A stretch of DNA of 64,000 bases from Streptosporangium carneum (GTDB taxonomy: Bacteria > Actinomycetota > Actinomycetes > Streptosporangiales > Streptosporangiaceae), in the NCBI RefSeq assembly GCF_027922005.1, contig NZ_BSEV01000003.1, positions 248,001-312,000 of the forward strand. The letters run 5' to 3'. The notes below the pieces were generated by a model. It was not told the origin of the DNA. It saw nothing but the letters and a program-made list of their open reading frames with translations, and made no database searches. The number at the start of each line of letters is the position of its first letter. Position 1 is the stretch's first letter. Both the position numbers and the translations under genes were made by a program. Positions 9,253 through 30,964 of this stretch are shown piece by piece.

Positions 9253-9446
9253 CCTTTCCCGCCCGCGCGGCGCAGCGTTCGGTGTTCTCCACGCTGCCCT
9301 CCGTGTTGGAGCTCCCGATGGTCCGGAAAGTTAAGACGGCCGACTTTGGACGTTCAACTCAGTCACCCCTGTCCGGTCACCCTCGTGGCTAGCGTTCTAA
9401 AACGCCCCAGCTCAGGGGCATTTGCCGTATGTCATGAGGAGCCACC

Positions 9447-11504
9447 TTGCGAGTCCTGGCCGTTGTCCCCGCCCGTGGAGGTTCGGCGGGCGTCCCGTTG
9501 AAGAACCTGGCCGCGGTGGGCGGCACTCCCCTGGTCGCCCGTGCGGTGAAGGCCTGCCTGCGGGCCGAGCTGATCGACGAGGTGGTGGTCAGCACCGACC
9601 ACCAGGGGATCGCCGAAGTGGCACGCGGGGCAGGGGCGACCGTGATCGAGCGGCCCGAGGAGCTGAGCGGTTCGACGGCCTCCAGCGAGTCGGCCGTCCT
9701 GCACGTCCTCGACCACCTCCCGGACACCCCGGACGTGGTCATCCTGGTGCAGTGCACCAGCGCGTTCATCGACCCGGCCGACCTCGACAGCGCGATCGTC
9801 AAGGTCCTCGACGGCACCGCGGACGTGGTGTTCTCCGGCCTGGAGACGCACGAGTTCCTGTGGAACACCGCCGGAGCGGGCGTCAACCACGACCCGGCCC
9901 ACCGGCCGCGCCGCCAGGACCGCGAGCCGGACTTCCGCGAGACCGGCGCCTTCTACGTGATGCGCACCGAAGGCCTGCGCGAGCACGGGCACCGCTTCTT
10001 CGGCGCCGTCACCGTGCAGCCGGTGCCGTCGCGGCACGCCATCGAGATCGACACCCCTGAGGACCTGGAGATCGTCAGGGCGCTGGCGCCGTTCGTCGAC
10101 CGGCCGGAGCCGATCGACGTGGACGCGGTGATCACCGACTTCGACGGGGTGCACACCGACGACCGCGCCTACGTCGACCAGGAGGGCCGCGAGATGGTCG
10201 CGGTCAGCCGCTCCGACGGCATGGGCGTCTCGCTCCTGCGGCGGTCCGGCGTCAAGATCATGATCATGTCGACCGAGCACAACCCGGTGGTCGCCGCCCG
10301 CGCCCGCAAGCTCGGCGTGCCGGTCCTGCAGGGCCTGACCGACAAGCGGACCGTGCTGCGCGACTGGCTGGCCATCGAGGGGATCGACCCGGCCCGCGTC
10401 GCCTACATCGGCAACGACGTCAACGACCTCGGCCCGATGGAGGACGTCGGCTGGCCCGTCACGGTGCCCGACGCCCACCCCAGGGTCCGCGCCGCCGCCA
10501 GGACCGTGCTGACCAGGCCCGGCGGCTTCGGCGCCGTACGGGAGCTGTGCGACCGGGTGCTCGCGGCCCGTCCCGAGCCCGAGGTCGCGCCGCCGGCAGC
10601 CCCCAGGACCGAGCTGCGGCTCACCCCGGTCGCCAAGCCCGTCCAGATCGGCGACGCGCTCGTCGGCGCCGGCCAGCCGGTCTACGTGATCGGCGAGATC
10701 GGCATCAACCACAACGGCGACATCGACATCGCGCGCAGGCTCATCGACGTGGCCGCGGACGCGGGCTGCCAGGCGGTCAAGTTCCAGAAGCGCACGCCGG
10801 AGATCTGCGTGCCGCTGGAGCAGCGCGACCAGATCCGCCAGACGCCGTGGGGCGAGATGACCTACATGGAGTACAAGATCAGGACCGAGTTCGGCCTGGA
10901 CGAGTACACCGAGATCGCCAAGCACTGCCAGGAGCGGGGCCTGCACTGGTTCGCCTCGCCGTGGGACGTGCCGTCGGTCGACTTCCTCGAGTCCATGGAC
11001 GTGGTCACGCACAAGGTCGCCTCGGCGAGCGTGACCGACCTGGAGCTGCTGCGCGCCCTGTCCGCGACCGGCAAGCCGATCATCCTGTCCACCGGCATGT
11101 CCACGCTGGAGGAGATCGACAGGGCGGTGGAGATCCTCGGCACCTCCAAGCTGGTGCTGATGCACGCCACCTCCACCTACCCGCTCCCGCCGGAGGAGGC
11201 CAACCTCCGCACGATCGTCACCCTCCAGGAGCGGTACGGCGTGCCGGTCGGCTACTCGGGTCACGAGCGCGGCCTGCAGATCTCACTGGCCGCGGTGACC
11301 CTGGGCGCGGTGACCGTCGAGCGTCACATCACGCTGGACCGCACCATGTGGGGCTCCGACCACGCCGCCTCACTGGAGCCCTCGGGCCTCGAACACCTGG
11401 TCCGCGACATCCGCATCATCGAGACCGCCCTCGGCGACGGCGTCAAGCGGGTCTTCCCCGGCGAGGAGGCCCCGAAGTCACGGCTGCGCCGGGTGACTGT
11501 ATGA
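9447..11504 (+). CDS. Trifunctional nonulosonate fusion: CMP-sugar synthetase / HAD phosphatase / NeuB-type synthase
   Basis: A 685-residue protein with three enzyme domains in one frame. Residues about 1-225 are a NeuA-type cytidylyltransferase (VVPARGGS followed by PLKN, then STDHQGIAEVA). Residues about 230-385 are a KdsC-like HAD phosphatase (TDFDGVHTDD, SRSDGMG, GNDVNDL). Residues about 400-685 are a NeuB-type synthase barrel (YVIGEIGINHNGD, VKFQKRTPE, STGMSTLEEI, GYSGHERG). The usual C-terminal SAF (antifreeze-like) domain of NeuB is absent. A built-in phosphatase suggests a 9-phosphate route, as in Kdn synthesis from mannose-6-phosphate. The product would be CMP-Kdn or a related CMP-nonulosonate for the neighbouring transferases. 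The start is TTG with GAGGAG upstream. Substrate choice is inference. Confidence 0.85.
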   Translation: MRVLAVVPARGGSAGVPLKNLAAVGGTPLVARAVKACLRAELIDEVVVSTDHQGIAEVARGAGATVIERPEELSGSTASSESAVLHVLDHLPDTPDVVILVQCTSAFIDPADLDSAIVKVLDGTADVVFSGLETHEFLWNTAGAGVNHDPAHRPRRQDREPDFRETGAFYVMRTEGLREHGHRFFGAVTVQPVPSRHAIEIDTPEDLEIVRALAPFVDRPEPIDVDAVITDFDGVHTDDRAYVDQEGREMVAVSRSDGMGVSLLRRSGVKIMIMSTEHNPVVAARARKLGVPVLQGLTDKRTVLRDWLAIEGIDPARVAYIGNDVNDLGPMEDVGWPVTVPDAHPRVRAAARTVLTRPGGFGAVRELCDRVLAARPEPEVAPPAAPRTELRLTPVAKPVQIGDALVGAGQPVYVIGEIGINHNGDIDIARRLIDVAADAGCQAVKFQKRTPEICVPLEQRDQIRQTPWGEMTYMEYKIRTEFGLDEYTEIAKHCQERGLHWFASPWDVPSVDFLESMDVVTHKVASASVTDLELLRALSATGKPIILSTGMSTLEEIDRAVEILGTSKLVLMHATSTYPLPPEEANLRTIVTLQERYGVPVGYSGHERGLQISLAAVTLGAVTVERHITLDRTMWGSDHAASLEPSGLEHLVRDIRIIETALGDGVKRVFPGEEAPKSRLRRVTV

Positions 11505-11824: not shown

Positions 11825-12754
11825 TTGATCAAGTTGTCCGTCGTCGTCCCGGTCAGGGACGCCGAGCTCTACATCTCCGACGCGCTCACCTCGCTGACCA
11901 GGAACGCGCGCAGGGACTTCGAGTTCATCGTGGTTGACGACGGATCGGCGGACGCGACCGGGCAGATCATCGAGGACTTCCGCGACGATCTTCCCGGTCT
12001 CGTCGTGCTGCGCAACGAGACGCCGGTCGGGCTGGCCGACGCCCGCAACCTAGGGGTCTCGCTGGCCTCGGGACGCTACCTGACCTTCATGGACGGCGAC
12101 GACTGGCTGGCTCCCGGCTATCTCGGCGAGCTGGTGGAGGCGATCGAGCGGCTCGGCTGCGACTTCGTCCGGGTCGACCACGTCCAGGTGGAGGGCAGGA
12201 AGCGGGTGATCCACCGGGCGCCGCTGGCGACGCGCGAGGTGGTGCTGAAACCGCGTGAGCACATCATGCCCGTCAGGGTGAAGACGATGGTCGACTACCC
12301 CTACGCCTGGGCCGGGATCTACCGCCGCGACCTGGGCGAGCTGTTGACCTTCCCCGGCCACCTGCACACCGCCGAGGACCGTCCGTGGATCTGGCGGCTG
12401 CACCGCCAGGCGGGCTCGTTCGCCGTGGTGTCGCTGGCGGGGCTGTTCTACCGGAGGATGGTCTCCGGCTCGCTGACCCAGATCGGCGACGCCAGGCAAC
12501 TGCACTTCTTCGACGCCTTCGAGCTGGTGCTGTCCGACCTGGAAGAGGAGTTCGCCCCCAAGGCGGTGCGCACCTTCTGCGCGCTCCTGGCCCACCATCT
12601 GGAGCTGGGCGAGCGTTTCTCCCCAGACCTGCGCGCCCGCTTCGAGAAACGCGGCGCCGACGCCCTCAGGCGGCTGTCCCCCGACCTGCTCGCCGCGGGC
12701 CGCCTGGAGCCGGAACGTGACCAGATCCTGCAGAGGCTGTTGGAGGTCCGATGA
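11825..12754 (+). CDS. Family 2 glycosyltransferase (GT-A fold)
   Basis: A 309-residue inverting glycosyltransferase. The N-terminal GT2 signature KLSVVVPVRDAELYI opens the Rossmann-like fold. VVDDGSAD is the nucleotide-binding loop and FMDGDDWL near residue 95 carries the metal-binding DXD. The C-terminal third is helical without membrane spans, so the enzyme is probably soluble or peripheral. The start is TTG with AGGGAAAG upstream. Its stop overlaps the next start as ATGA, implying translational coupling to the polysialyltransferase-like protein. It probably adds a linker or side sugar to the polymer; donor and acceptor are unknown. Confidence 0.85.
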   Translation: MIKLSVVVPVRDAELYISDALTSLTRNARRDFEFIVVDDGSADATGQIIEDFRDDLPGLVVLRNETPVGLADARNLGVSLASGRYLTFMDGDDWLAPGYLGELVEAIERLGCDFVRVDHVQVEGRKRVIHRAPLATREVVLKPREHIMPVRVKTMVDYPYAWAGIYRRDLGELLTFPGHLHTAEDRPWIWRLHRQAGSFAVVSLAGLFYRRMVSGSLTQIGDARQLHFFDAFELVLSDLEEEFAPKAVRTFCALLAHHLELGERFSPDLRARFEKRGADALRRLSPDLLAAGRLEPERDQILQRLLEVR

Positions 12755-14037
12755 CACAGTTGTTCTACGCCTCGACCCTGTTCGGCGCGATGACGCTGGC
12801 GGCCGCGATCGACGAGGGCCGTTTCGGGCCGCACCGGGGACGCAGGATCCTGCTGGTCTCCAACAACGCGGCCATCCCGGAGATCACCCCGTCCCTGGAC
12901 CAGGCCCCCGGCTTCGCGGCGCTGCGACCGCGCTTCGACGAGGTGTGGTCGTGGAACGACATCGTGGCGCCGTTGCACCCGTCCGACTGGAAGGCCCGCA
13001 TCATCGAGGTCCCGATGCTGGCCCGCCTGCTGCGCTCCCACCTCTCCCTCGACGAGGGGCCGGACGAGCTGGTCCTGGAGTCCATCGCGGTGCCGCCGGC
13101 CAGGACCATCGCCGGCCTGGTCAAGGACTGCCCGATCACGGTCTACTCCGACGGCCTGATGAGCTACGGCCCGACCCGCGACCCCCTCCCCCAGGAGATC
13201 TCGGGGCGGATCACCCGTCTGCTCCACCTCGACCTCGTGCCGGGCCTGTCGCCGCTGTTGCTCTCCGAGTACGGGGTGCCCGCCCAGACCCTGCCCGACC
13301 AGGCGTTCCTCCGGGTGATCGGGCAGGCGGAGGAGCACGCGCGCGGCACCGAGGGCCTCGCCTCGGGACAGGCGATGATCCTCGGCCAGTACCTGTCCGC
13401 GCTCGACATCGTCACCCCCGAGGAGGAGGCCGGGCTCCACGCCGACATGCTGCGAGGTCTGGCGGCCAGGGGATTTCGCACCGTGCTGTTCAAGCCGCAC
13501 CCCGCGGGCGGGCGGCGTCACGCGCAGCAGCTCCGCGAGACCGCCGGAGAGCTGGGAGTGACGCTGACGGTCGTGGGCGAGACCGTCCCCGCGGAGTCGT
13601 GCTTCGCCGCGCTCAGGCCGGAGCTGGTGGTCGGGTGCTTCTCCACGGCCCTGATCACCGCCCGGCAGCACTTCGGCCTGCCGGTGGCGGCGGTCGGGGG
13701 CGAGACGGTCCTGGAGCGGCTGTCTCCGTACGAGAACAGCAACCGGATCCCGGTCACGATCACCGACGCCCTGCTTCCGCGCCTCTCCCCTGACGGGTCA
13801 CTGCGGGAGCCGCCGACGGTCGATCTCCAGGAGCTGGTCAGCGCCGTGGGCTACTGCATGCAGAGCGGCTCCCATCCGGGACTGCGCGAGCGGACAGCCG
13901 CCTACCTGGACGCCAACGGCCCCGCCCGTTACTTCAAGCGACAGCGCCTGACCGCGCTCGAACTGGTCTCCCCGGCCGCCACGGACTCCAGCCCCCTGGG
14001 CAAGCTCCGCCGCCGCCTCTCCAGAGCCCTCTCCTGA
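12751..14037 (+). CDS. Alpha-2,8-polysialyltransferase-family protein
   Basis: A 428-residue protein resembling the polysialyltransferase family (PF07388). It begins LFYASTLFGAMTLAAAI, a GT-B first strand. Motifs reminiscent of bacterial sialyltransferases are visible: a D/E-D/E-G-like SDGL (about 133), the HP motif FKPHP (about 250), and a serine motif CFSTAL (about 298). There is no signal peptide or membrane span. It is coupled to the GT2 gene by an ATGA overlap and lies downstream of the CMP-nonulosonate fusion. It is therefore a good candidate for polymerising the nonulosonic acid at the membrane's inner face. The linkage made cannot be read from sequence. Confidence 0.75.
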   Translation: MTQLFYASTLFGAMTLAAAIDEGRFGPHRGRRILLVSNNAAIPEITPSLDQAPGFAALRPRFDEVWSWNDIVAPLHPSDWKARIIEVPMLARLLRSHLSLDEGPDELVLESIAVPPARTIAGLVKDCPITVYSDGLMSYGPTRDPLPQEISGRITRLLHLDLVPGLSPLLLSEYGVPAQTLPDQAFLRVIGQAEEHARGTEGLASGQAMILGQYLSALDIVTPEEEAGLHADMLRGLAARGFRTVLFKPHPAGGRRHAQQLRETAGELGVTLTVVGETVPAESCFAALRPELVVGCFSTALITARQHFGLPVAAVGGETVLERLSPYENSNRIPVTITDALLPRLSPDGSLREPPTVDLQELVSAVGYCMQSGSHPGLRERTAAYLDANGPARYFKRQRLTALELVSPAATDSSPLGKLRRRLSRALS

Positions 14038-14235: not shown

Positions 14236-14291
14236 GGTTTCGGCTTGGGAGCGCCCAGGCCCGCGACGCGCAGCGTCGCAATGAACACAGC
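14236..14291 (-). terminator. 3' hairpin element, copy B (after the DUF6716-like gene)
   Basis: On the minus strand the 19-base block GCTGTGTTCATTGCGACGC (14291-14273) begins inside the stop codon. It is followed by the hairpin GCGACGC / GCGTCGC (14263-14279), then GGGCCTGGGCGCTCCCAAGCC. Against copy A it matches at both flanks but lacks the roughly 90-base inner hairpin seen at 11553-11620. The remaining sequence to 14040 is GC-rich without a recognisable gene. Confidence 0.6.
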
Positions 14292-15490
14292 TAGAAGGCG
14301 CCCAGGTAGCGGCGCATTCTTCGCTTGGCCCGGTAGCCGACACGCAGCACCTTGGGCGGCACCTCGACGCGCAGGCGGGCTCTGCGGCGGGCGGCGGCGT
14401 GCTGGGGGCCGTCGAGCAGGGACTTGGCGGGGATGAGGCGTCCTGAGCGGGCCTGGCCGACCAGGGCGACCATCCGGGAGACCCAGTCGCTGTCTCCGGC
14501 GGGGTGGAAGTAGTTCGCCTGGCACCAGGCTTCGTCCGGGGTCAGGAAGCGGCCCTCCGCCACGTCCTCCAGGGTGCCGAGCAGGCCGCTGTTCTCGAAG
14601 ACCAGGTTGATCATCTCGGCGCTGACGCCGAAGTCCGACAGCACCAGCAGCGGCACCGACTGGGCGATCGCCTCGAGGGCGGCGGTGGAGCTGACGGTGA
14701 CGAACCCGGCCGCGTGGGCCAGGTGCTCGTGCATGGGTCCGACGGCGAAACGCACCGCGTCAGGACGGACGTGCCCCTCGGTGACCAGTGACTGCCACAG
14801 GCGCTGGTAGTGGTGGCGCTCGTTGTGGGTCTGGCGCTCGGTGTCCAGCGCGCGGAGTTTGACCACCACGTCCAGGTCGGGGCGCCGCTCGGCCAGGGCG
14901 GCCAGGGCGAGCAGGATCCGCTCGCGCTCCTCCCTGCGTTTGGGCACCTTGGCCTGGGTGGCGAACACGACGCGGTTGCGCGGCCCCGTGACGGGGACCT
15001 CCTGGCCGTTGTGGAGGAACGGCAGCCGGGTGAGGCCGATCGCCCCGCCGCCGCCCAGGTCCCTGCCGATCGCCGTGAACTCCTCGACCTCCCGCCCGCT
15101 GTGCAGGACGAACAGGTCGCATCCGCTGCGGAAGAGCCATGCCTTCTCGGTCGCCGGGATGGAGATCCCCGGCAGGCCGGACACGAAGACCGGCCTCGGT
15201 TCAAGACCCGCCAGCACCTCGCTGACCAGCACGTCCACCACAGGCCCCGTGCAGGCGACCAGGACAGCGTCCGGCCTGAACCGCTCCGCCGCCCTGCGCA
15301 GCGCTCTGGCGGACAACACGGGCGGGTCGGTGGCCGCGCCTGCCACCGCCGCGTGGATCTGGGCCGCGGAGGGCGTGATGGGGGTGCGGATCACCGTCAG
15401 CTCCGCCGTACAGCCGGAGGGCAGGCTCTCCAGCAGGTAGGCGGCCCACTTCAGGTAGGAATCCGAGTCGGCCACGGCCAGGACCTTCAA
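14291..15490 (-). CDS. DUF6716-like putative glycosyltransferase
   Basis: A 399-residue protein resembling the group annotated as DUF6716 putative glycosyltransferase (from memory of the family). It begins LKVLAVADSDSYLKWAAYLL and has a two-lobe GT-B look: a first Rossmann half to about residue 150, ISIPATEKAWLFRSGCDLFVLHS in the middle, and a second half with VVFATQAKVPKRREER and VTVSSTAALEA. The TTG start overlaps the upstream gene's TGA (TTGA) and has GGAG eight bases before it. There are no membrane spans. It is co-transcribed with the polysialyltransferase-like gene at 15487, so it probably serves the same surface polymer. Confidence 0.7.
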   Translation of the reverse strand: MKVLAVADSDSYLKWAAYLLESLPSGCTAELTVIRTPITPSAAQIHAAVAGAATDPPVLSARALRRAAERFRPDAVLVACTGPVVDVLVSEVLAGLEPRPVFVSGLPGISIPATEKAWLFRSGCDLFVLHSGREVEEFTAIGRDLGGGGAIGLTRLPFLHNGQEVPVTGPRNRVVFATQAKVPKRREERERILLALAALAERRPDLDVVVKLRALDTERQTHNERHHYQRLWQSLVTEGHVRPDAVRFAVGPMHEHLAHAAGFVTVSSTAALEAIAQSVPLLVLSDFGVSAEMINLVFENSGLLGTLEDVAEGRFLTPDEAWCQANYFHPAGDSDWVSRMVALVGQARSGRLIPAKSLLDGPQHAAARRRARLRVEVPPKVLRVGYRAKRRMRRYLGAF

Positions 15491-16524
15491 CCTGTGACTC
15501 CAGTGTCGTGATGGGCGAACATCGAAAGGTGGGAACGGAGGGAGGGAGCCGCCTGGGCGGTCCACCACTCGTCGGGGACGTCCACGGTCTCCACGGCGAC
15601 GCCGCGGGCCGACAGCAGGACGCGCAGGGAGGTGACCGCGGTCGACGGCAGGCTCAGCACCCGCTGTTCCGCGGCCAGGCCCCGCAGGGTCATCTCGGCG
15701 GGGGCTCCGCCGTCGTAGACGGTGATCCCGGGTTGTTCCCTGACCCGGGCGAGATCGTCTGGGTCCTCCCTGCGGTGCGGGAAGTAGGCCACGGGTTCGG
15801 TTGAGCCGAGTCCCGCCAGCCAGGTGAAGTAGCGGTCGCGGTGGATGAGGCCGTTGCGGACCAGCGAGGTGCCGAGGACGACGGTGCGCTCCCGGGGCCC
15901 CGGCCCGCGCAGGGGCTGCGACCTGAGCCACGCGAAGTCGTGGGTGACGAGTTCGGCCCCCCTGTCGCGTACGGCCTGCGCCAGCTCCGCGGGGACGGGC
16001 AGCGCCGTGAAGACCGACAGCCGCCCCGCGCGCGCCGCGGCCCTCAGTCGCAGACCGGCGGCGACGCCGAGCGCCTTCCTGAGCGGGCTCGCCGTGGCCC
16101 TCGCTCTCAGCAGCGGCGTCCAGGCGCGCCCGGTGAGCAGTTCCAGGAGCCTGATCGTGGCCAGGCCGTCGTCGACGATCACGATTCGTCCGGGAAGGGC
16201 GGTGAGCCAGCCCGCCTGGACCTTGCCGGAGAAGGCGTCGCCGACCGCCCAGCTCACACCCCGGTGCGGCCTGGGCATCTCGGGGGCCGGCATGGCGAGT
16301 TCGAGGCCGTCGGGCGGGCCGAGCCTGGCGATCTCGCGGCGGGTGACGGCGAGCGGTCGCAGCTTGGCCCTGGGGATCACTCTGGCATGGGCGCCGAGCA
16401 ACCCCGCGTGGTGGGCCTCCACGGCGCAGAGCATCTGCAGCGGGGACTCCACCCAGGCAATGGCCGAACCCTGCTCCCGCGCGTGGTCTCGACCGTCCTC
16501 CACGCCGGGCGATGACCCGTTCAC
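15487..16524 (-). CDS. Second sialyltransferase-like glycosyltransferase
   Basis: A 345-residue protein. After a short leader it reads IAWVESPLQMLCAVEAHHAG, the opening seen in GT52/polysialyltransferase-like proteins (TPLQ-type first strand). Later motifs fit that class: IVIVDDGLATI (acidic-Gly motif), VAYFPHRRED (His-Pro-type region) and LSLPSTAVTSL (serine motif). I placed the start at GTG 16524 with GTGAGG upstream; upstream in-frame sequence is rich in improbable residues. It forms a two-gene unit with 14291 that converges on the fusion-GT2-polyST unit. A role as initiating or side-branch nonulosonic-acid transferase is inference. Confidence 0.65.
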   Translation of the reverse strand: MNGSSPGVEDGRDHAREQGSAIAWVESPLQMLCAVEAHHAGLLGAHARVIPRAKLRPLAVTRREIARLGPPDGLELAMPAPEMPRPHRGVSWAVGDAFSGKVQAGWLTALPGRIVIVDDGLATIRLLELLTGRAWTPLLRARATASPLRKALGVAAGLRLRAAARAGRLSVFTALPVPAELAQAVRDRGAELVTHDFAWLRSQPLRGPGPRERTVVLGTSLVRNGLIHRDRYFTWLAGLGSTEPVAYFPHRREDPDDLARVREQPGITVYDGGAPAEMTLRGLAAEQRVLSLPSTAVTSLRVLLSARGVAVETVDVPDEWWTAQAAPSLRSHLSMFAHHDTGVTG

Positions 16525-16624
16525 GACTGCCTCACCGTAACCCGGATGTCTTACAGGCCTGGGAACTGCGGGTGAACACCCGAATACACCCACTTGCGGG
16601 GCCAACAACAGGCGATCTACGGTG

Positions 16625-16647
16625 GTGTACGAAACCGTTTCGTACAC
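16625..16647. promoter_or_regulatory. Perfect palindromic operator ahead of the SDR-TetR pair
   Basis: Arms GTGTACGAAAC (16625-16635) and GTTTCGTACAC (16637-16647) around a single central C. It lies 25-47 bases before the SDR start. The pair includes a TetR gene, so this is the likely autoregulatory TetR operator. Confidence 0.7.
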
Positions 16648-28338: not shown

Positions 28339-29550
28339 ATGAGTCAGAACACATGTGTGATCGCCGGGGGCGGCCCGGCGGGGGCCGTGCTCGCGCTGCT
28401 GCTGGCCAGGGCGGGCGTCCAGGTGACGCTGCTGGAGAAACACTCCGACTTCCTGCGTGACTTCAGGGGTGACACCATCCATCCCTCGACGCTGCAGGTC
28501 CTGCGGGAGGTCGGCCTGGCCGAGGAGTTCCTGCGGCTGCCGCACCACAAGGCCCGCGGCATGACGATCCGGACCGACGACGGAGCGGTGCCGATCGCCG
28601 ACCTGTCCAAGCTCGACAGCGAATACCCGTACATCGCCTTCGTCCCGCAGTGGGACTTCCTCAACCTGGTGACCACGGCCGCCGCGCGCCACCCCTCCTT
28701 CCGTCTCGTCATGAACGCCGAGGTGCACGGCGTGATCCGCGAGGGCGACGCGGTGCGCGGCGTCCGCTACCGCGACCCGGACGGCGAACACGAGCTCCGG
28801 GCGACGCTCACCGTCGCCGCGGACGGCCGCCACTCCGACGTGCGGCGCGCCGCCGGGCTCGTCCCGGTCGAACACGGCGCGCCGATGGACGTGGTCTGGT
28901 TCCGGCTGCCACGCGAGCCCACGGACCCCGACGAGACGTTCCTGCGCCTTTCCATGGGCAGGCTCATGGTGGTGATCAACCGGGGAACCTACTGGCAGCT
29001 CGCCTACGCGATCCCCAAGGGGGGCTTCGACGCCCTGCGGGCCGAGGGCGTCGAGGCGCTTCGCGAGCCGGTGGCCGCCCTGCTGCCCTTCCTGAAGGAC
29101 CGCACCGGCCTGCTGACGGGCTTCGGGGACGTGAGCGTGCTGTCGGTCGCCCTCAACAGGCTGCGGCGCTGGCACCGTCCCGGACTGCTGGTCATCGGGG
29201 ACGCGGCGCACGCCATGTCGCCGGTCTTCGGCGTCGGCATCAACCTGGCCGTGCAGGACGCGGTGGCCGCGGCCAACCTCCTCGCGGGGCCGCTGGCCTC
29301 GGGCGCCGAGATCCCCGAGTCCCTGCTCGCCAGGGTCCAGCGCCGCCGTACACCGCCGACCGTGGTGACCCAGTTCGCCCAGCGCGTGGTGCAGGCCCGA
29401 GTGATCCGCCCCGCCCTGTCGGAGAACGACACACCGGTACGGCTGCCGCGCGACCTGGCCCACATGCCGGTCCTCGGCGCCCTCGCCCGCCGTTTCATCG
29501 GCCTCGGGGTCCTTCCCGAGCACGTCAGAAGCCCGTCGCAGAGCGGGTGA
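28339..29550 (+). CDS. FAD-dependent oxidoreductase (aromatic hydroxylase-like)
   Basis: A 403-residue flavoprotein of the PHBH-like monooxygenase family (FAD_binding_3). The N-terminal dinucleotide-binding motif is GGGPAGAVLALLLARAGVQV, and the DG motif is VAADGRHSDVR near 170-180. The second FAD motif is VIGDAAHAMSPVFGVGINLA (about 285-305). It probably hydroxylates an aromatic or polyketide substrate with NAD(P)H and O2; no neighbour reveals which. It is divergent from sigK, and no strong ribosome-binding site precedes the ATG. Confidence 0.82.
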   Translation: MSQNTCVIAGGGPAGAVLALLLARAGVQVTLLEKHSDFLRDFRGDTIHPSTLQVLREVGLAEEFLRLPHHKARGMTIRTDDGAVPIADLSKLDSEYPYIAFVPQWDFLNLVTTAAARHPSFRLVMNAEVHGVIREGDAVRGVRYRDPDGEHELRATLTVAADGRHSDVRRAAGLVPVEHGAPMDVVWFRLPREPTDPDETFLRLSMGRLMVVINRGTYWQLAYAIPKGGFDALRAEGVEALREPVAALLPFLKDRTGLLTGFGDVSVLSVALNRLRRWHRPGLLVIGDAAHAMSPVFGVGINLAVQDAVAAANLLAGPLASGAEIPESLLARVQRRRTPPTVVTQFAQRVVQARVIRPALSENDTPVRLPRDLAHMPVLGALARRFIGLGVLPEHVRSPSQSG

Positions 29551-29632
29551 GACCTCACCGGAGACAAAGACGTTCTCAATCCGTGGACATCTAGGTGGGT
29601 TCGCCCACGCAAGTGCAATAGCCTGGTATGTC

Positions 29633-30964
29633 GTGAGCAACAACCTCGATTCCTGGCGGCAGCTGACCGCGGCGCAGCAACCCGAGTGGCCCGACCGCGG
29701 CGAGCTGGACAGGGTGGTCGCCGAACTGGCGGGGCTGCCCCCCCTCGTGTTCGCGGGGGAATGCGACAACCTCAAGGCCGAACTGGCGGCGGTGACACGG
29801 GGCGAGGCCTTCGTGCTGCAGGGCGGTGACTGCGCGGAGACGTTCTCCGGGGCCACCGCCGACGGCGTCCGCAACAAGCTGAAGACGCTCCTTCAGATGG
29901 CCATCGTGCTCACCTACGCGGCCAAGGTGCCGGTGGTGAAGATCGGCCGGATAGCCGGGCAGTTCGCCAAGCCCCGGTCCAAGGGGACCGAGGTCCGCGA
30001 CGGGATCGAGCTTCCCGCCTACCGGGGCGACATGGTCAACGGCTTCGACTTCACCCCCGAGTCCCGCATCCCCGATCCCGGGCGGCTGCTGCGCGCCTAC
30101 CACTCCTCCGCGGTCACGCTGAACCTCGTGCGCGCCTTCACCAAGGGCGGCTACGCCGACCTGCGGCAGGTGCACGCCTGGAACCAGGACTTCGTGAGCG
30201 AGTCCCCCGCGGGCAAGCGCTACGAGCAGCTCGCCAGGGAGATCGACCAGGCGCTGGCGTTCATGCACGCCTGCGGAGCCGACCCGGAGGAGTTCCACAG
30301 CGTGGAGTTCTACTCCTCGCACGAGGCGCTCATCCTCGACTACGACCGGGCGCTCACCAGGATCGACTCGCGGACCGGCCAGCCGTACGACGTCTCGGCG
30401 CACATGGTCTGGATCGGCGAGCGCACCCGCCAGCTCGACAGCGCGCACGTGGAGTTCTTCTCCCGCATCCGCAACCCGATCGGCGTGAAGCTCGGCCCGA
30501 CCACCACCGCCGAGGACGCCCTCGCGCTGGTCAGGAAGCTCAACCCGGACAACGAGCCCGGCCGCCTGACCTTCATCACGAGGATGGGCGCGTCGAAGAT
30601 CCGCGAGCACCTGCCCTCGCTGGTGGAGAAGGTCACCGCGGACGGCGCCCAGGTGGCCTGGATCTGCGACCCGATGCACGGCAACACCTTCGAGGCTCCC
30701 AGCGGGCACAAGACCCGGCGCCTCGACGACGTGCTGAGCGAGGTCGCGGGCTTCTTCGAGGTGCACCGCGCGCTGGGCACGCACCCCGGCGGCGTCCACA
30801 TCGAGTTCACCGGTGACGACGTCACCGAGTGCGTGGGCGGCGGCTACGAGATCGTCGAGGACGACCTGGCGCTGCGCTACGAGACGGCCTGCGACCCGCG
30901 CCTCAACCGGAGCCAGTCCCTGGACCTGGCCTTCCGGGTGGCGGAGCTGTACCGCTCGGCCTGA
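29633..30964 (+). CDS. aroG: Class II 3-deoxy-7-phosphoheptulonate (DAHP) synthase
   Basis: A 443-residue enzyme condensing phosphoenolpyruvate and erythrose-4-phosphate, the first step of the shikimate pathway. Class II signatures are clear: GGDCAETF (about 63-70), KIGRIAGQFAKPRSKGTE, WICDPMHGNT (about 343-352) and GGVHIEFTGDDVTECVGG. The length matches the plant/mycobacterial class. The GTG start has no good Shine-Dalgarno, while TAGCCT/TATGTC lies directly upstream, so the message may be leaderless or nearly so. A TTCG-loop hairpin (29596-29609) separates it from the preceding gene, and a strong terminator follows. Confidence 0.95.
   Translation: MSNNLDSWRQLTAAQQPEWPDRGELDRVVAELAGLPPLVFAGECDNLKAELAAVTRGEAFVLQGGDCAETFSGATADGVRNKLKTLLQMAIVLTYAAKVPVVKIGRIAGQFAKPRSKGTEVRDGIELPAYRGDMVNGFDFTPESRIPDPGRLLRAYHSSAVTLNLVRAFTKGGYADLRQVHAWNQDFVSESPAGKRYEQLAREIDQALAFMHACGADPEEFHSVEFYSSHEALILDYDRALTRIDSRTGQPYDVSAHMVWIGERTRQLDSAHVEFFSRIRNPIGVKLGPTTTAEDALALVRKLNPDNEPGRLTFITRMGASKIREHLPSLVEKVTADGAQVAWICDPMHGNTFEAPSGHKTRRLDDVLSEVAGFFEVHRALGTHPGGVHIEFTGDDVTECVGGGYEIVEDDLALRYETACDPRLNRSQSLDLAFRVAELYRSA

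Follow-up and report, generated by a model that had tools for sequence, protein, structure and literature searches.

A NeuA-phosphatase-NeuB fusion protein of Streptosporangiaceae as a probable single-chain CMP-Kdn synthase

A single gene of the soil actinobacterium Streptosporangium carneum encodes a NeuA-type CMP-nonulosonate synthetase, a KdsC-type HAD phosphatase and a NeuB-type synthase in one chain. It lies in a 64,000-nucleotide stretch of contig NZ_BSEV01000003.1 (assembly GCF_027922005.1), hereafter the window. From its domains, specificity residues and neighbours we infer that the product is quite likely a trifunctional CMP-Kdn synthase, which would turn mannose-6-phosphate, phosphoenolpyruvate (PEP) and CTP into CMP-Kdn and feed a teichulosonic-acid polymer. 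The NeuB-type barrel would make Kdn-9-phosphate from mannose-6-phosphate and PEP, the middle HAD domain would strip the 9-phosphate, and the N-terminal NeuA-type domain would use CTP to convert Kdn to CMP-Kdn. Adjacent polysialyltransferase-like, GT2 and DUF6716 glycosyltransferases would then polymerise CMP-Kdn into teichulosonic acid, a wall polymer that contains Kdn but no phosphate. An earlier note on this DNA had already proposed Kdn, and the HAD triad, the similarity of the NeuA domain to structure 9t4z and the gene cluster lend that proposal support in silico. The features of the gene are as follows.

9324..9446, + strand: conserved upstream/promoter block (alignment of 10 upstream regions)
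9436..9441, + strand: GAGGAG ribosome binding site (alignment of upstream regions)
9447..11504, + strand: fusion gene NeuA-HAD-NeuB, 685 aa, TTG start (ORF reading, Pfam/NCBIfam)
9447..10091, + strand: NeuA-type CMP-nonulosonate synthetase domain, residues 1-215 (PF02348; nearest solved structure 9t4z)
10119..10577, + strand: KdsC/Kdn9P-phosphatase-type HAD domain, residues 225-377 (D231/D233, S275, K300, D324, E277/R285/K288)
10575..10634, + strand: linker spanning roughly residues 377-396 (low pLDDT; lacks a start codon preceded by a ribosome binding site)
10635..11501, + strand: SAF-less NeuB-type synthase barrel, residues 397-685 (PF03102; best structure 6ncs)

The frame is open for all 685 codons, and Pfam and NCBIfam place three domains in it, in agreement with the earlier description of three enzymes in one unbroken frame. 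Each of the regions for which a domain search had been proposed (PF02348, KdsC-type HAD and PF03102) was matched. Pfam assigned CTP_transf_3 to residues 5-173 and NeuB to 432-667, with a weak HAD match; the NCBIfam matches were KdsC-type models over 225-377 and NeuB/PseI models over 412-681, none of which reached its curated cut-off. A frameshift or stop that splits the domains had been raised as a concern. Because relatives share the identical continuous frame, with the domains unsplit, we rule out a frameshift or assembly artefact as the source of the fusion.

The TTG start is credible because the GAGGAG motif precedes it and the region up to the start codon is conserved. This motif is kept in 10/10 aligned upstream regions, and the same ten sequences show strong conservation from about 9324 onward, up to the start codon. 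Among 81 loci parsed out of a set of 100, the first codon was TTG in 57 and GTG in 24, and 76 had a Shine-Dalgarno-like 5-mer 5' of the start. The block also contains repeats of CACCC and, 5' of the ribosome binding site, a short inverted repeat in which CCCC is followed by GGGG. When the window was scanned with a PHO-box consensus, 193 sites scored at least 16; no clear PHO box was identified for the gene, none of the best 25 of these sites falling within 9253-9446.

Conservation and structure were assessed with an alignment (A2) of 50 rows picked from the loci, of which 36 cover NeuA-HAD and 37 cover NeuB. An AlphaFold2 model built on A2 had a mean pLDDT of 85 and a pTM of 0.47, and does not fix the arrangement of the domains. 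Values below 50 were confined to the linker (377-394), two stretches of the HAD domain (240-243 and 254-256) and residues 683-685. The first Foldseek matches were 6ncs for the barrel (TM-score by target 0.88), 9t4z for NeuA (0.84) and 3mmz for HAD (0.84).

In the NeuA domain, R10, K19, Q102, E200 and D202 are invariant (36/36). The Arg, Lys and Gln presumably belong to the CTP-binding motifs and the acidic pair to the metal site, so that the domain carries both the PF02348 motifs and the metal pair of a CMP-nonulosonate synthetase. Its nearest solved relative by sequence is 9t4z, titled PpNeuA CMP-Kdn synthetase; the two have E-x-D in common, whereas the other three aligned enzymes have D-x-D. 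This similarity suggests a CMP-Kdn synthetase, with a possible preference for Kdn over Neu5Ac. PpNeuA is probably the Prymnesium enzyme of PMC6200933, an identity that we infer. According to that paper, the Prymnesium CMP-Kdn synthetase did not use Neu5Ac, and the route from mannose-6-phosphate to CMP-Kdn was shown biochemically with Prymnesium enzymes and a Bacteroides phosphatase; three accessions of the Kdn pathway of Bacteroides thetaiotaomicron are named there as well. The paper describes the Prymnesium enzymes, which follow the route proposed here, as separate proteins, unlike the fusion, and reports that no phosphatase homologue was found in that organism.

The HAD domain retains D231/D233, S275, K300, D324 and D327 in 36/36 sequences, and the E277/R285/K288 triad is equally constant (36/36). 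In chain 3e81, which we take to be BT1713, the Kdn-9-phosphate phosphatase of Bacteroides, the corresponding E56/R64/K67 stand at the same distances from the first DxD aspartate as in the fusion (46, 54 and 57), with the 3e81 residues read from an alignment to the HAD domain of Methylomagnum. Glu56, Arg64 and Lys67 reportedly mark Kdn-9-phosphate phosphatases, a finding credited to Lu et al. in 2009. In B. thetaiotaomicron the Kdn pathway consists of three separate proteins. For BT1713-BT1715 the same three activities would be expected as for the fusion, and the phosphatase residues of BT1713 are shared with it. Among related entries, 3mmz of S. avermitilis has the Glu and Lys of the triad in common with the window HAD; the first and third sites are Ala and Gln in 3n1u, and in the aligned stretch of 4hgq position 56 is Ala. 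In three aligned chains named as Kdo-8-phosphate phosphatases, Arg occupies the first site, and the third is Glu, Thr or Ala. A Kdo-8-phosphate phosphatase (KdsC), and hence a Kdo product, was rejected because the fusion has Glu277 where these chains carry Arg. The Kdn-9-phosphate phosphatase model NF058599 scored 90.7 bits against a curated cut-off of 180. The earlier note had argued for a 9-phosphate intermediate from the KdsC-like phosphatase as such; the intermediate holds up, by way of the Glu/Arg/Lys triad, but the argument from a KdsC-like domain by itself does not.

Mammalian CMAS also has a NeuA domain followed by a KdsC-type HAD domain, with no NeuB domain, and its HAD domain is an oligomerisation platform. 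The HAD domain of the fusion might likewise be structural, with another phosphatase or none acting on the intermediate. We consider this very unlikely, since Asn replaces the first DxD aspartate in the aligned mouse CMAS HAD (3ewi), whereas the fusion keeps D231 and all the other catalytic residues. The idea gains something from genomes without the domain: a search of 11 genomes at E ≤ 1e-10 found no HAD in four (G412, G182, G366 and G329) despite the same NeuA and NeuB being present. These four, of f20/g41 and taken as Streptomyces, were chosen because the HAD seemed missing. As they have NeuA and NeuB without it, the built-in phosphatase is not indispensable everywhere, and the step can go otherwise, at least in these HAD-less genomes. 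For the fusion itself we favor a catalytic Kdn-9-phosphate phosphatase.

The synthase barrel has the TIM-barrel residues of the NeuB/NANS family (PF03102). E417, K445, K523, H606, E625, H627 and D638 are invariant (37/37) and correspond to the family residues Glu25, Lys53, Lys129, His215, Glu234/His236 and Asp247, presumably with catalytic roles. Loss of catalytic residues had been named as grounds for abandoning the earlier interpretation, and none is lost in any of the three domains. The barrel is followed by no SAF domain that Pfam or NCBIfam could match. Supply of SAF by another protein was ruled out, as the whole host genome gave no SAF match at E ≤ 0.001; a control search matched in 8/14 genomes. 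SAF is also absent, by length, in split homologues and in homologues of 301 aa on a Methylomagnum plasmid, 293 aa on a Hymenobacter plasmid and 312 aa on S. meliloti pSymB. The solved Leptospira synthase 6ncs, the top structural match of the barrel, is SAF-less too, its 290 aa leaving no room for the domain. Given these split relatives, the 293-312 aa homologues and 6ncs, SAF is, as far as sequences and lengths tell, not a strict criterion of the NeuB/NANS family. The absence noted earlier is thus real, but it is not a loss particular to the fusion.

At the position of NmeNeuB Glu134 the fusion has Ser528, and A2 has Ser in 33/37 sequences, Gly in 2 and Cys in 2. The aligned Leptospira, Campylobacter, Bacillus and Neisseria enzymes are acidic there (Asp in the stand-alone 6ncs), and this acidic residue of the family is absent from the fusion barrel. 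Because Ser528 replaces Glu134, the fusion synthase may differ from a standard NeuB. The Methylomagnum and Hymenobacter synthases have Ser at this position and that of S. meliloti has Thr. Since these three are both SAF-less and non-acidic there, the SAF-less, Ser-type synthase is best read as a wider lineage in several phyla and not as decay within the fusion.

Four genes downstream of the fusion recur with it.

11825..12754, + strand: GT2 glycosyltransferase, conserved neighbour (79/80 loci)
12751..14037, + strand: polysialyltransferase-like protein, PF07388, conserved neighbour (79/80 loci)
14291..15484, - strand: DUF6716 putative glycosyltransferase, conserved neighbour (69/80 loci)
15487..16644, - strand: conserved protein near the fusion, no Pfam match (62/80 loci)

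These counts come from tblastn on 80 named loci with flanks of up to 8 kb, some of them shortened by contig ends. NeuB, NeuA, GT2, polysialyltransferase-like and DUF6716 genes thus occur together at the fusion locus, as in the teichulosonic-acid gene set, which was defined from the window and a Planobispora rosea list and not from the S. coelicolor record. In PMC8269224, the P. rosea counterparts of SCO4877, 4878, 4879, 4880 and 4882 are listed as Pho-activated, one of them is named sialic acid synthase, and the authors call the cluster product teichuronic acid. SCO4873-4882 is described in PMC13011467 as the teichulosonic-acid cluster of S. coelicolor and a PhoP target. By way of the P. rosea orthologue list, SCO4873-SCO4882 is the same kind of gene set as that of the window, with phosphate control reported. 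The neighbours and the published Planobispora and S. coelicolor work together point to a phosphate-controlled teichulosonic-acid (Kdn) wall-polymer cluster. The literature searched on teichulosonic acid yielded no wall-polymer analysis of Streptosporangium. Elsewhere in the window, a class-II DAHP synthase gene (29633-30964, + strand) lies beside an FAD-binding oxygenase-like gene (28339-29550), and the two (28339-30964, + strand) may belong to a cluster for an aromatic secondary metabolite.

The same fusion could make another nonulosonic acid, for example Neu5Ac from ManNAc-6-phosphate or an unknown 9-carbon acid, with HAD again removing the 9-phosphate. Among the NCBIfam models, TIGR03569 NeuB_NnaB fits the synthase best, though below its cut-off, and Ser528 makes for a non-standard active site; both would suit such a product. 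It is nonetheless improbable given the Kdn-9-phosphate triad of the HAD domain, a CMP-Kdn synthetase as the nearest solved NeuA and, provided that PpNeuA is the Prymnesium enzyme, the reported failure of that enzyme to use Neu5Ac. Moreover, the host genome has no NeuC above the cut-off (one NeuC-like hit fell below it), and the wall polymer of streptomycetes contains galactose and Kdn, as stated in PMC11481543. As for the substrate of the favored Kdn route, a bacterial PGI/PMI (PF10432) is present in the host genome, where two models found no type I mannose-6-phosphate isomerase.

The host genome (9.8 Mb) has a single match to the fusion protein. The best relatives of this protein, other Streptosporangium among them, share 92-93% identity with it. 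The three domains share one frame in 100/100 loci, a figure that is not a frequency because the loci are best matches (including the best 80 of 410), contain the window gene itself (L001) and represent only 91 distinct proteins. In a sample of 250 Streptosporangiaceae genomes, own genome included, 115 had a match at a threshold of 1e-60, and the fusion occupies a single frame in 99 of these (rows counted by hand). The 99 comprise 94 full-length, stop-free rows; G403, whose whole frame was seen on closer reading; G599, G576 and G580, each with two overlapping pieces in the same frame; and G481, which is cut by contig ends but has two pieces that both span the junction. Another 14/115 have a two-ORF form (seven whose full-length match is interrupted by one stop, seven with two ORFs), and the remaining two are truncated at contig ends. 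The stop always lies between HAD and NeuB in the four single-stop genomes inspected in detail (G388, G150, G210 and G219). The earlier note had called a triple chain unusual. The triple fusion itself stands, but not as a one-off, for it is the prevailing form among matching family genomes and a clade-wide variant of a known pathway. Nine relatives (G002, G004, G009, G011, G012, G015, G018, G023 and G029) also carry a second, distant NeuB with 38-40% identity.

Outside the family the genes are arranged differently. Most of the actinomycete genomes inspected there, including the Streptomyces-like f20/g41, encode NeuA-HAD and NeuB in two ORFs, in contrast to the single chain of the window. Among 20 genomes outside the family, 18 show this arrangement and none has the triple fusion; G329 has NeuA and NeuB separate without HAD, and in G243 (L160) the two share one frame with no HAD between. 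A class sample of 394 genomes, with ORFs inspected in detail for part of them, added only one further stop-free full-length row among the matches listed, that of G285 (f47), which is fused. Of the other genomes inspected, G214 has three separate genes. NeuA and NeuB share one frame without HAD in G412 (L137:6493-8184) and one G182 copy (L140:6355-7956), and lie apart, with HAD missing, in the other G182 copy and in G366. The remaining genomes of that reading with both genes have NeuA-HAD plus NeuB. A phylum sample (296 genomes, E ≤ 1e-150) gave just three matches: the host itself and two genomes seen before. On S. meliloti pSymB (L156, 3062-6397), genes for a SAF-less synthase, NeuA-HAD and DUF6716 stand in a row beside an annotated alpha-2,3-sialyltransferase gene, placing the same module in a rhizobium.

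The fusion may have originated from neighbouring neuA-HAD and neuB genes through loss of the intervening stop. A 37-row tree built by a quick method, in which S. meliloti and L144 form long branches, requires the fused state to have changed twice, once at the Streptosporangiaceae clade and once at G285. As its starred branches force only one change, a single origin with later losses may also account for the distribution. In the literature searched, a search of limited reach, we found no description of a NeuA-HAD-NeuB fusion and no assay of an enzyme with this architecture.

A ribosome-binding-site-like motif and an ATG remain at the junction in the fused G285 and in the frames that join NeuA to NeuB in G412 and G182. 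The HAD-less frames of G412, G182 and G243 are possibly two-domain fusions or sources of a dual product. By the same token, a fused triple frame could yield two proteins, through an internal start for a separate NeuB or through cutting of the linker. There is little chance of this, as the only in-frame start codon listed at the HAD-barrel junction of the window has no ribosome binding site, and motif-like hits occur at the junction in only 2/81 parsed loci, both inside the last HAD helix. For the window, an internal start giving a separate NeuB was ruled out on the basis of that start codon.

If the single chain is a CMP-Kdn synthase, one polypeptide might carry mannose-6-phosphate all the way to an activated sugar of the sialic-acid family, passing Kdn-9-phosphate and Kdn between its domains, while the little-described SAF-less Ser lineage would use a solution unlike that of classical NeuB for closing the active site and dealing with the phosphosugar. 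This fuller picture is tentative and rather less likely than not. One gene should make CMP-Kdn, which would render the biosynthesis of Kdn wall polymers in actinomycetes testable in one tube. The natural series of split genes, one in-frame stop, full fusion and NeuA-NeuB without phosphatase offers a test of what, if anything, fusing buys, and the SAF-less, Ser-type lineage offers one of how NeuB may function without its lid domain.
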